A stretch of DNA of 64,000 bases from assembly GCA_902527045.1 (NCBI GenBank), contig CABZNL010000004.1, positions 30,739 to 94,738 on the forward strand. Direction: 5' to 3'. Within the stretch, counting starts at the first letter, position 1. Each line of letters opens with the position of its first letter. This document shows positions 30,700 through 52,072 of the stretch, one piece after another. Source of the DNA: an uncultured Alphaproteobacteria bacterium. GTDB taxonomy: Bacteria; Pseudomonadota; Alphaproteobacteria; HIMB59. A program made the translations under genes and the position numbers. Below the pieces are notes generated by a model. The model was given only the letters and a program-made list of their open reading frames with translations. It ran no database searches and had not been told where the DNA came from.

Positions 30700-30757
30700 A
30701 TGTCCTAATTACACAAGTGTTTGAAATCTAGATCATAGGATATTGAGTAATAAATGT

Positions 30758-36945: not shown

Positions 36946-37020
36946 GCCGCCGTAGCTCAGTGGTAGAGCACACCCTTGGTAAGGGTGGGGTCGGAAGTTC
37001 AATTCTTCTCGGCGGCACCA
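36946..37020 (+). tRNA. tRNA-Thr (GGT), integration target
   Basis: This 75-base cloverleaf has acceptor GCCGCCG/CGGCGGC, D-stem GCTC/GAGC, anticodon stem CACCC/GGGTG with loop TTGGTAA (anticodon GGT), T-stem GGAAG/CTTCT with loop TTCAATT, and encoded ACCA. The gene is complete. Its 3' half recurs at 38725-38775 and 43442-43486, so it acts as the attachment site of the adjoining island. The first lyase stop codon is only 3 bases beyond the CCA. Confidence 0.97.
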
Positions 37021-37023
37021 TAT

Positions 37024-38448
37024 TTAAAATCCAGCTTGTACTCTAGAAGGTACTGACTCTTTTATTTTTTGAGAGATTAATGTTTCACATGAATAATCTA
37101 GATTACCTATACCCAAATCTTCACAATTTCTGGCAAAATGTATTTCGTCTGCAAAATATTCTTGGTGAGAATAATCTAAAAAAGATCCGTAGATACCAAA
37201 GTGAAATGCTACCTTGTTTTTATCTTTTTCAATACCGGGTAACTGCTCCCATAATGTTTGATTGTTTTTTGATATAACAAGTTCACCGTTCATCCAAATT
37301 TTATGAAAGGCTTGATCTATATTTTTATTATCAAAATTAATATTAAAGACAAAGTCATACCAGCTATTTCTTTTTATCTCATCAGTTTTTAAAATTGTGT
37401 ATTCTTGGAATTGTGCATTACAAAATTGATGTTTATTTTCACCGCCTGCCCCTGGAGAGCAATTATTATTACCCTCTGGATATAATTTAATACCTTTAGC
37501 TGAGTCATGTGTCCATATTAAACCTCTACTTTTAACTATATCAAGCATAAACATTGGTGGTAAATAGTCGTAGTCACTATGAAATTGTAAAAGTGCTTTT
37601 TTCATAGTCGGCATTTCAAATTTATCTGGTAAGTAAAAAGAAAAGCTAACCCAAACATTTCCTACAAATCCAGTATCATGTCTTGGCTCAACTCTTTTTT
37701 GTTTTTCACCATTTGGGCGTTTACAATCCTCATCTCTTTGAAAACATTCGTCACCTGGGGCTTGAATAAAAAAAGATGTTTCTCCAAAACGGGTTGGTGA
37801 ACTTACAACAGAAAATAATTTAATATTTTTTTTATTTTCATATGCTTGCATCTCCTTTCTACCTGTAACCCACCAGTCATTCCAGCCTTGTAAAGTTGTG
37901 TCATTAGGATTTTCTATTCCAAGATTTTTTTTATATAAGTCATTTGAAAATGCTAAGTTATCAGAAGATAATTGTTTAAGAGTAGCTTTAATATATTCGT
38001 TAGAGTCTTGGTCGCCCCAAGGAGCCATTCCTTCATAAATTACTTCATTATCTTGATTTTTCTTTTCCAAAATAATTTTTACTTTTTCTGGACAATCGCA
38101 ATTTATATCTAAATTTCCGATGATAATAATATCGTCATTTTTTTGTATTATTTTAACGCTTTTTCTGTACTTATTTCCAATACGGACTCCGTCATTGAAA
38201 GTTATATTTTTTACCTCTCCATTTACAAAATTGACTTCATCAATTGCATCTCGCTCACTATCAGTAATTGTTTTTTTTTCATCTACGATTAATGTTTCCC
38301 ATTCTAAAAGATATGTCCCATCTATTTGAGACAAATTTGACTTTTCATAAGAATTTGGAGTGTCATCTTCAATCTGCTTACCGTCTTTGAAAGTTAATCC
38401 CCAACTCAGGGTGGGTACGAAAAACAATAAAAAGATAAACTTATTCAT
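37024..38448 (-). CDS. Secreted polysaccharide lyase-like protein (jelly-roll type)
   Basis: This 474-residue exported protein has a signal peptide (about residues 1-17, MNKFIFLLFFVPTLSWG) followed at once by the shared motif LTFKDGKQ. The C-terminal half resembles the heparin-lyase-I-like polysaccharide lyase family: GNVWVSFSFYLPDKF (about residue 272), LLQFHSDYDYLPPMFMLDI, HKIWMNGELVISKNN, and a final FADEIHFAR. The N-terminal 200 residues are not recognised. The specific polymer is unknown. It forms the only gene of the island segment next to the tRNA and has its own copy of the conserved upstream block. Confidence 0.68.
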   Translation of the reverse strand: MNKFIFLLFFVPTLSWGLTFKDGKQIEDDTPNSYEKSNLSQIDGTYLLEWETLIVDEKKTITDSERDAIDEVNFVNGEVKNITFNDGVRIGNKYRKSVKIIQKNDDIIIIGNLDINCDCPEKVKIILEKKNQDNEVIYEGMAPWGDQDSNEYIKATLKQLSSDNLAFSNDLYKKNLGIENPNDTTLQGWNDWWVTGRKEMQAYENKKNIKLFSVVSSPTRFGETSFFIQAPGDECFQRDEDCKRPNGEKQKRVEPRHDTGFVGNVWVSFSFYLPDKFEMPTMKKALLQFHSDYDYLPPMFMLDIVKSRGLIWTHDSAKGIKLYPEGNNNCSPGAGGENKHQFCNAQFQEYTILKTDEIKRNSWYDFVFNINFDNKNIDQAFHKIWMNGELVISKNNQTLWEQLPGIEKDKNKVAFHFGIYGSFLDYSHQEYFADEIHFARNCEDLGIGNLDYSCETLISQKIKESVPSRVQAGF

Positions 38449-38643: not shown

Positions 38644-38724
38644 CGAAAATTTCTGAAACTTAACTCACACTTTGGTTTGGCATTACCCAAAAGAACAAGT
38701 TTTTGTTACTTATGGTAGCAAAGT

Positions 38725-38775
38725 ACACCCTTGGTAAGGGTGGGGTCGGAAGTTCAATTCTTCTCGGCGGCACCA
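38725..38775 (+). repeat. tRNA-Thr 3' fragment (attachment site copy 1)
   Basis: These 51 bases are identical to 36970-37020 of tRNA-Thr, covering most of the anticodon arm through CCA. The 5' half of the tRNA is absent, though TGGTAG just upstream echoes the D-loop. It divides a 1.75-kb segment with one lyase gene from a 4.7-kb segment with three genes. This is the structure left by site-specific insertion at a tRNA 3' end. Confidence 0.9.
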
Positions 38776-38830: not shown

Positions 38831-40240
38831 CTAAAACTCTAAATCATCAAAAGTAACTTCCTGAAAAACAATAGTTTCATAGTCAATTGTTGGGAAGTTA
38901 TCTTGGTAAATAATATATGATATACCTCCAATAGATAGATTTGAGTCTATTTGAGAAACATCTTTCATTGAATATGCATTAGTGGTGGCGTATTTTTCTG
39001 TATTCCACCACCATCCAGCTTCAATATTTTGAAATCTCTCAGCTTTTTGTTTTCCAAAAGTTGCCTCATAGATACTGATCCATCCAGAGTCTGATTGAGT
39101 TCTCATCATTCCATTTGTATCAATTCTTCTTTTTGCTTGTTCGTTATCAATATCATTAATCCAACAACTTTGATAAAGATTTTTTCTTCTCTCGTCAGTT
39201 TTTTGATTTCCATATTTTCTTTCAAATTCTTTTTCATATTTCTTTTGATGGTCAAAAAATAAATTTGTATCCATAGATGCTTCATAAACTGAGTCAATAA
39301 TTTGCCCAATAGTATGATTATCAGTAAGTTTAACTTGAAAAAGATCATAGCCTTGTAATTTTAAATTCCATAGCATACTCATTACAGGCTGAAGTCCATG
39401 ATAATTATAATGAAGAGCACACTCTCCTCTTTGACTATCTAATTTAAATAAACCAGTTTCAGTAGAATTTGCCTTCATGGCTTTTAAAAAATACTTAATT
39501 GAGTCTTGAAACATTTTATTATCATTTAAAATAATACTAGCTGCCATTTTAAAGTTAAAATAATAAAAACCATGATTTGAATTAACACTTAACTCTCCAA
39601 CTCTTGATTCATTTTGGGCATAGTCATATTTACTAATTAATTTATAAATTTGAGACTTGAAATTTTTTTGGAGTTCTTTTGGTAAATCCTCTTCAATCAA
39701 AGTGAAGGTAAATAAAACTGATGTTAAGTATACTCCAATTTCATATGCAATTTGGTCATCATTTGAGGGTTTTGGGAGATTTAATAACCATTCATTTTTA
39801 ACTAAATCATTATAGAAAGATTTAAGTTTTTCCTCTCTGTCTTTTTTCCACTCATCTGCACGATATATTGATTTAGAATTAGATACAGATTTACTAGTTC
39901 TTAATACAGTCTCACACCAATAATGAATAGGGAATGCCCCGATAAGCTCAATATAATTAAAATAATTATTTTTGTTTATTTGATTTAATGAGAGCTTAGT
40001 TACATCTTGAACATCATACTTACTATATCGACACCCCCACTGAGTCTTACCAGACTCTTCTATAAATTTATTTGAGTAATTATCAAAAATAGTTTTTGCA
40101 TTATTATTTATCTTTTCAGTTAATTGATCTTTATCAATAAAAAGTAGATTGGGGTTTTTTATAACCCAATCTTTATAATTAATATTATTGGAAAAACACA
40201 AACTAGGGATTAATAACAATAGTGCTAAGAGAGTCTTCAT
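38831..40240 (-). CDS. Secreted alginate-lyase-like protein
   Basis: This 469-residue exported protein has a signal peptide MKTLLALLLLIPSLCFS (about 1-17). Most of the sequence is helical with aromatic-rich motifs: GAFPIHYWCET, SVNSNHGFYYFNFKMAAS (about residue 217) and RGECALHYNYHGLQPVM (about 264). These fit the alpha/alpha-toroid alginate lyase superfamily (PL5-like), in which N-x-H and R-G-x-x-A-L-x-Y-x motifs line the cleft. Substrate unproven. It is the third gene of a D-C-B style unit transcribed from 43.2 kb, 30 bases after the previous gene. Confidence 0.6.
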   Translation of the reverse strand: MKTLLALLLLIPSLCFSNNINYKDWVIKNPNLLFIDKDQLTEKINNNAKTIFDNYSNKFIEESGKTQWGCRYSKYDVQDVTKLSLNQINKNNYFNYIELIGAFPIHYWCETVLRTSKSVSNSKSIYRADEWKKDREEKLKSFYNDLVKNEWLLNLPKPSNDDQIAYEIGVYLTSVLFTFTLIEEDLPKELQKNFKSQIYKLISKYDYAQNESRVGELSVNSNHGFYYFNFKMAASIILNDNKMFQDSIKYFLKAMKANSTETGLFKLDSQRGECALHYNYHGLQPVMSMLWNLKLQGYDLFQVKLTDNHTIGQIIDSVYEASMDTNLFFDHQKKYEKEFERKYGNQKTDERRKNLYQSCWINDIDNEQAKRRIDTNGMMRTQSDSGWISIYEATFGKQKAERFQNIEAGWWWNTEKYATTNAYSMKDVSQIDSNLSIGGISYIIYQDNFPTIDYETIVFQEVTFDDLEF

Positions 40241-50931: not shown

Positions 50932-51378
50932 TTAGAAATCTGAAAACAATTCAGCAAAAATACTCAGATCAACATATTGAATGAATAACTCACTTGCAGC
51001 TGTTACTCCTTTATCTTGCATAAGTTCTCCCATCGCTAATTCACCCAAAAGTTCGAATGCATAAAAAACACTTTCCTCACCCTCATATTTGATAGCTTGA
51101 TTTAATTCATCATTACATTTGTAGGCGAATACATTAGTCATATAATCAGCAACTCTAATATTTGCCATTTCAACGTCTTCTGCAGTAAGGTTTGACAATT
51201 GACTTAACTGAGGATGAAAGGAAATTGTAACATAGATCCATTTTACTAAATCAGTTTTTTCTTGAGCTGTAGTTTTAGTGACTAAACATTTAGCAAAATC
51301 GTCAGTAAATGGTCCAGCAAATGAATTCAGATTAAAAAATATTAAAATTAATGAAATATATGATAAGAGTTTTTTCAA
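50932..51378 (-). CDS. Secreted hypothetical protein with structured RNA leader
   Basis: This 148-residue exported protein has signal peptide MKKLLSYISLILIFFNLNSFA (about 1-21), a hydrophilic mature part of about 127 residues with two cysteines (near residues 31 and 88) and mainly helical character. No family is recognised. Its start is about 50 bases downstream of the stable RNA element at 51430-51533, which has its own promoter on the same strand. This suggests that its expression is controlled by the leader, or that it simply lies after a small RNA. Confidence 0.7.
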   Translation of the reverse strand: MKKLLSYISLILIFFNLNSFAGPFTDDFAKCLVTKTTAQEKTDLVKWIYVTISFHPQLSQLSNLTAEDVEMANIRVADYMTNVFAYKCNDELNQAIKYEGEESVFYAFELLGELAMGELMQDKGVTAASELFIQYVDLSIFAELFSDF

Positions 51379-51429
51379 TAATCCATCATATCAAGTTTTA
51401 AGAGATAAGTTTAGTTAATAAATAATAAG

Positions 51430-51533
51430 CAGAAAAGGACCTCCGATGTCTCGACCACGTTTTGGTTTCCCTCTTCGCGGCCTCTACTTCTTTGGTCCTT
51501 TTCCTTGTTTTGGGAAGTTTCCAACCCTCTACA
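51430..51533 (-). ncRNA. Structured RNA: leader or small RNA, family unknown
   Basis: This stretch is markedly G+C-rich in an AT-rich spacer. Bases 51433-51441 and 51494-51502 form a perfect 9-bp stem (AAAAGGACC/GGTCCTTTT). Inside, a 7-bp stem on the minus strand (GGCCGCG/CGUGGUC) uses two G-U pairs that would be A-C mismatches on the plus strand, so the RNA is read from the minus strand. It encloses a GG-GAAA-CC mini-hairpin with a GNRA-type loop. Further 5' there is a GGGUUGGAAACUUCCC hairpin-like element. A promoter-like TTGTCA-N17-TATGTT precedes it. It does not match RNase P, SRP RNA, tmRNA or a riboswitch class I can recognise. Confidence 0.7.
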
Positions 51534-51538
51534 CTATA

Positions 51539-51567
51539 AACATAAATTAATTAATTTTTTTTGACAA
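51539..51567 (-). promoter_or_regulatory. Promoter-like element for the structured RNA
   Basis: TTGTCA (51567-51562) and TATGTT (51544-51539) on the minus strand are separated by 17 bases. Transcription would begin near 51533, at the first base of the structured RNA. The fit in spacing and position makes this more credible than most AT-rich matches here. Confidence 0.55.
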
Positions 51568-51628
51568 TTATAAAAGTTAATTATTTATATTTTTCTGTTT
51601 ATAATTTGTGAATAAGTTTTATTTGTTA

Positions 51629-52072
51629 TTAAATACTTGATAACTCTTCAATTACATTTTTAACGTGATCTTTTACTCTAACATTACTCCAAGTCTTAAT
51701 AATATTGCCTTTTTTATCTATAAGTACTGTTGATCTAATTATTCCATAATATTCCTTACCTAAAAATTTTTTTAGCCCCCAAGCTTTGTATTTTTTAAGA
51801 ACTTTTGTTTTTTCATCAGATAATAAATCAAATCTTAAATTATTTTTTTTAATAAATTTTTGATGACTTTCAATTGAATCTTTAGAAACACCCACGACTA
51901 TTGCGTTGAGCTTATTTATAATTTTGAGAGAATTATTGAAATCATTGGCTTCTATAGAGCATCCAGATGTATTATCCCTAGGGTAAAAATATAAAATTAA
52001 ATTTTTCCCAAGGTGATCGCGTAGGTGAAATGTTCCTGAGGTACTGGGTAATTTAAAATTAGGAGCTTTCAT
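51629..52072 (-). CDS. bcp: Thioredoxin-dependent peroxiredoxin, BCP/PrxQ type
   Basis: This 147-residue thiol peroxidase starts MKAPNFKLPSTSGTFHLRDH. The peroxidatic cysteine lies in YFYPRDNTSGCSIEANDF (about residue 38), where the usual TPGC is TSGC. No second cysteine five residues later is seen, so it would act as a 1-Cys type or use another resolving thiol. It reduces hydroperoxides in the cytosol. It ends about 60 bases upstream of the structured-RNA promoter. Confidence 0.88.
   Translation of the reverse strand: MKAPNFKLPSTSGTFHLRDHLGKNLILYFYPRDNTSGCSIEANDFNNSLKIINKLNAIVVGVSKDSIESHQKFIKKNNLRFDLLSDEKTKVLKKYKAWGLKKFLGKEYYGIIRSTVLIDKKGNIIKTWSNVRVKDHVKNVIEELSSI

Follow-up and report, generated by a model that had tools for sequence, protein, structure and literature searches.

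A probable stand-alone small RNA gene behind a conserved promoter of its own in marine HIMB59 Alphaproteobacteria

The minus strand of a 64,000-nucleotide stretch from an uncultured alphaproteobacterium of the HIMB59 lineage (positions 30,739 to 94,738 of contig CABZNL010000004.1, assembly GCA_902527045.1; hereafter the window) carries a block at 51428..51532 that most probably constitutes a gene for a small non-coding RNA of about 105 nt, present in single copy and standing alone behind its own promoter (a probability of roughly 0.8, judged from sequence comparison). Its limits follow from a block that is conserved, with covariation, across 33 distinct homologues and from promoter spacing; these would place the 5′ end of the transcript at G51532 (or U51533) and its 3′ end at about 51428–51420. 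The region is conspicuous by composition, with a G+C content of 0.42–0.43 over 51400–51549 vs. 0.14–0.25 in most adjoining 100-bp windows. Upstream on the same strand lies bcp, a gene for a Bcp-type peroxiredoxin (51629..52072, minus strand; Pfam AhpC-TSA) that stops about 95 nt short of the RNA. Downstream lies a gene for a putative exported protein without a Pfam family (50932..51378, minus strand), which starts, apparently with a TTG codon, at 51378, i.e., about 50 nt past the RNA, and is not part of the RNA unit.

Folding of 51426–51533 as minus-strand RNA yielded –39.5 kcal/mol (z of –4.1, with 1 of 200 shuffled sequences as good), vs. a z of –1.75 for the plus strand over the same interval. 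The 5′ part forms hairpin I (51506..51533, minus strand), which reads UGU-AGA-GGG(U)NG-GAAA-CUUCCC-AAA-ACA, with its GNRA loop at 51521–51518. It is the most conserved part of the RNA, with 23 of 28 columns invariant, and it displays no covariation because its sequence hardly varies. The remainder forms hairpin II (51431..51504, minus strand), a long, GAAA-capped structure with covariation in its helices 3 to 6. From its base, hairpin II comprises an 11-bp outer stem (51504–51494 paired with 51441–51431, the previously described part being AAAAGGACC/GGUCCUUUU), a 7-bp inner stem (GGCCGCG/CGUGGUC, 51482–51476 with 51459–51453), and a GG-GAAA-CC cap (51471–51464). Its internal loops are purine-rich and of the 3x3 type, including an AGA/GAG tandem. 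In nearly all homologues a U-rich tail comes after the 3′ side of the outer stem, and stem and tail probably double as an intrinsic terminator (51420..51441, minus strand). A simple terminator scan did not pick up this site, since its loop limit of 3–8 excludes such a long hairpin.

The structure was assessed against 33 distinct sequences with a minimum pairwise identity of 65% and a median of 83%, in which 97.4% of the paired cells of the consensus structure were standard pairs. Changes on both sides were seen in 12 of the 31 pairs, vs. 5.7 in shuffles (of 500, none reached that count), and in 74 cells, vs. 28 expected from shuffles, while the covariation score reached 0.220 vs. 0.123 (again none of 500 as high). 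The two-sided changes fell in helix 3 (six pairs), helix 4 (three), helix 5 (two), and helix 6 (one), and the outer stem occurred as GGACC/GGUCC, GAGCC/GGCUC, and GGGUC/GACCC variants. When the pairing register was slid, pairing dropped to 42–52%. Moreover, the paired cells comprised 929 Watson-Crick and 66 G-U pairs but only 3 A-C combinations, indicating transcription from the minus strand. A preliminary description, made from the letters of the window, had proposed a structured RNA in this G+C-rich island, with an outer stem, a 7-bp stem, and a GNRA-type cap, had assigned it to the minus strand from its G-U pairs, and had called for covariation analysis on homologues; the fold, the strand, and the pairing pattern all bear it out, each described element being present. 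Absent from that description were the 5′ hairpin (51533–51506) and a conserved block upstream of the promoter (51615–51595, see below). A coding sequence on either strand could be ruled out, as no frame was open in all homologues, each being interrupted in some of them, and the changes follow base pairing.

A blastn comparison recovered 23 homologues among 60 related genomes, all of the same genus and, the window itself aside, with 77–92% identity. A covariance model built from these 23 revealed one copy each in 34 of the genus's 52 genomes. It had no hit in the rest of the order (about 110 genomes) or in a further 380 or so Alphaproteobacteria, where the filters were strict and remote forms could escape. 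Across 84,980 species, the exact hairpin I motif was found in 33 stretches, all from marine alphaproteobacterial single-cell or metagenome records, and an exact-motif search of IMG/VR revealed no phage-borne copy. A search of about 1 Mb of related sequence gave no convincing paralogue, its one match having an E value of 1.9.

Among the genomes without the RNA, contigs break off beside the locus in three (G020, G036, and G161), and five others (G029, G148, G023, G012, and G014) retain the thioesterase gene with no RNA in the available sequence. One of these, G029, is a 1.4-Mb single-contig genome that is 99% complete. A filter-free model scan at the thioesterase loci of these five genomes revealed nothing convincing, a weak G+C-rich match being a transfer RNA (tRNA). 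Since the thioesterase tree places G029 as the sister of a genome that has the RNA, the RNA has likely been lost in some lines. The region downstream of the thioesterase gene differs in RNA-less relatives (loci L102 and L103, with other genes in G029 and a tRNA-Thr in G148), and thus appears to be a variable spot in the genus.

The promoter assigned to the RNA is of the sigma70 type (51539..51567, minus strand), with a –35 element TTGTCA (51567–51562), a 17-nt spacer, and a –10 element TATGTT (51544–51539). Within the window alone such a pair is at chance level (two found vs. 2.1 expected in a consensus scan), and the promoter is therefore called real on account of its conservation: TTG at –35 and TANNNT at –10 are present in 34 of 34 loci, with a spacer of 16–17 nt and the –10 element ending 6–7 nt before the G of GUAGAGGG. 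Further upstream, a 21-bp block (TTATTCACAAATTATAAACAG, 51595..51615, minus strand, about –83 to –63) contains an imperfect 11-bp direct repeat and is a candidate regulator-binding site. The sequence TTA(T/C)NCACANNTTATAAACA is present at –83 or –84 in all 34 loci. When nine genomes were searched with up to three mismatches, copies with zero or one mismatch occurred only beside the RNA, once per genome, and three-mismatch sequences were found elsewhere in three of them; at the same tolerance, G029 contained no copy. The block is retained in loci without bcp and therefore belongs to the RNA. It may be bound by a regulator, and its spacing and repeat would suit an activator. A reading as a DnaA box was not favoured, as TTATNCACA is no more frequent in the window than expected by chance and is replaced by TTACTCACA in some homologues.

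The genes around the RNA are less constant. In the 33 loci with data, bcp is the upstream neighbour in 30, ending 91–99 nt before the RNA, and the exported-protein gene is the next gene in 21, coming and going beside the RNA across the genus. Another gene is next in the remaining 12; in 11 of these it is convergent, and its stop codon lies between +87 and +298, counted from the RNA start. The promoter and upstream block are unchanged in loci with a different downstream gene. Since a leader acting in cis cannot work where the next gene is convergent, the RNA is best regarded as a stand-alone gene. Like trans-encoded small RNAs it has a conserved promoter of its own, in 34 of 34 loci, and is not protein-coding. 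The preliminary description had already suggested an own promoter and a next gene some 50 nt away, both of which were found, and had left the choice between an independent small RNA and a riboswitch-type leader of the exported protein; of these, the former stands and the latter does not. It had also failed to match the RNA to a known class, in agreement with the lack of any match in Rfam 15, at gathering or loose thresholds, whether for the RNA itself or for those divergent homologues that were examined. No description of it was found in the open-access papers searched for small or noncoding RNAs of HIMB59. It may nevertheless have been sighted before among unnamed marine small RNAs, for instance by Shi et al. 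in 2009.

As to function, a factor binding the upstream block would set the output of the sigma70-type promoter that belongs to the RNA, and the base of hairpin II would end the transcript. Most likely the RNA would then act in trans as a regulatory RNA, possibly by docking a protein that it titrates or delivers, with the near-invariant GAAA-capped hairpin I and the purine-rich symmetric loops of hairpin II as possible recognition surfaces. Protein binding, itself at somewhat less than even odds, is tentatively and narrowly favoured over base pairing, with the rest left to other mechanisms, because the strongest sequence conservation lies in the GAAA-capped hairpin and in these loops, the most conserved part being a hairpin and not an open seed. 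Profile searches of six genomes of the genus (G000, G004, G016, G017, G028, and G029, one of them being the 99% complete single contig) revealed neither Hfq (PF17209) nor CsrA (PF02599), which were found in five and three of 14 control genomes, respectively. Likewise, these six genomes gave no match to 6S RNA (RF00013) in a search that was positive in control genomes. With the controls positive, Hfq- and Csr-dependent models appear unlikely. The joint absence of Hfq, CsrA, and 6S RNA from the six genomes is in itself an unusual set. The bolder proposal of a new class of stand-alone, protein-binding global regulator RNA, serving streamlined marine bacteria without recognisable Hfq, CsrA, or 6S RNA, with a dedicated factor acting as its switch at the unique upstream block, is rather unlikely on the present sequence evidence.

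The best-surviving alternative, possible if somewhat doubtful, is an Hfq-independent base-pairing small RNA, in which the hairpin I loop (GUAGGAAACUU) or the AAAAC linker would pair with one or more mRNAs. Such a function would agree with the near-invariant 5′ domain (the same 23 of 28 columns), and with the combination of own promoter and upstream block that is usual for trans-acting small RNAs, but not with the lack of any Hfq family member in the six genomes. Moreover, a target scan that paired the hairpin I domain with the start regions of orthologous genes (640 pairs from two genomes, of which about 0.97 and 0.90 Mb were sampled) gave no convincing target: the best summed energy was –42.2 and the fifth –37.6, near or only slightly beyond those of shuffled RNAs, which ranged from –36.2 to –44.6 for the best and from –30.8 to –35.2 for the fifth. 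Two chance blastn matches, to an isoleucyl-tRNA-synthetase-like frame (same sense) and to a gene starting MDLTQGDIKK (antisense), were not conserved as pairings. Several considerations nevertheless weigh against the proposed protein-binding regulator. A tightly conserved hairpin loop can also act as a base-pairing seed, pairing RNAs that work independently of Hfq exist, and the target scan covered start regions only, in two genomes. Furthermore, the RNA is missing from G029, despite the completeness of that genome, and is therefore not essential to the lifestyle of these bacteria.

The remaining explanations fare considerably worse. Given that bcp so regularly ends shortly before the RNA (in 30 of the 33 loci, at 91–99 nt), the latter might be a 3′ untranslated region element or terminator of bcp. 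This is improbable, as a conserved promoter separates the two, as the RNA, promoter, and block persist without bcp (L062, L076, and L087), and as the RNA exceeds a terminator by far in complexity and sequence conservation.

A diverged 6S RNA, i.e., a promoter mimic that binds RNA polymerase, appears about as improbable. Both are stand-alone RNAs with a long interrupted helix, and the promoter is well formed, but the present RNA has no score with the Rfam 6S covariance model at E ≤ 10. It is also shorter (about 105 nt), contains only symmetric 1x1, 3x3, and 4x4 loops with no large central bubble, and carries an extra GNRA-capped 5′ hairpin outside the long helix. Moreover, it is absent from G029, which likewise lacks 6S RNA.

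Least tenable is a leader, riboswitch or attenuator, that serves the exported-protein gene (50932–51378), which shares the strand and lies about 50 nt away in 21 of 33 loci: synteny contradicts it, as the 12 loci with a different next gene, 11 of them convergent and thus offering nothing to control in cis, keep promoter and block unchanged, and no known riboswitch class was matched. Signal recognition particle RNA, RNase P, and transfer-messenger RNA were dismissed, being present elsewhere in the genome.

Compared with known systems, the RNA shares with bacterial intergenic small RNAs its size, independent promoter, terminator-like 3′ stem with U-rich tail, single copy, and clade-restricted distribution, but differs in that the genus has no recognisable Hfq, that a hairpin and not an open seed is most conserved, and that there is no Rfam family. 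As in titrating RNAs of the CsrB/RsmZ type, AGGA and GGGA occur in or near hairpin loops (GUAGGAAAC and AGGGAAAC), but there are only two such loops, they are GNRA-capped, and the six genomes encode no CsrA family protein. Finally, the structured RNAs of 'Candidatus Pelagibacter ubique' (Meyer et al. 2009, PMC2704228) are likewise G+C-rich intergenic RNAs in the A+T-rich genome of a streamlined marine alphaproteobacterium; the motifs named in the passages considered are, however, mostly cis-regulatory leaders (SAM-II/SAM-V, glycine, rpsL, pntA, and ffh). A term search of the paper returned no mention of 6S RNA.

Elsewhere in the window, two tRNA-Thr(GGT) sequences are found on the plus strand (36946–37020 and 38699–38775), one intact (70.9 bits) and one weak (36.1 bits). 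In the weak one, the 5′ half is altered and the 3′ half is the same, the shared stretch lying in an 89-nt repeat of 82% identity with copies 1755 nt apart. The pair flanks a single gene (37024–38448, Pfam Polysacc_lyase), with an alginate-lyase-like gene next (38831–40240). Together, the tRNA pair and enclosed gene look like the att-type scar of a small cargo integrated at a tRNA.

In summary, the locus defines a new family of bacterial small RNA, although not a new category. Streamlined ocean bacteria have very little non-coding DNA and few regulators. Selection for a function of this RNA is strongly evidenced, a single locus with its promoter and upstream block having been kept over 65–100% RNA identity while the adjoining genes were swapped. 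For marine metatranscriptomes, the locus thereby provides a covariance model ready for use and a specific target to look for.
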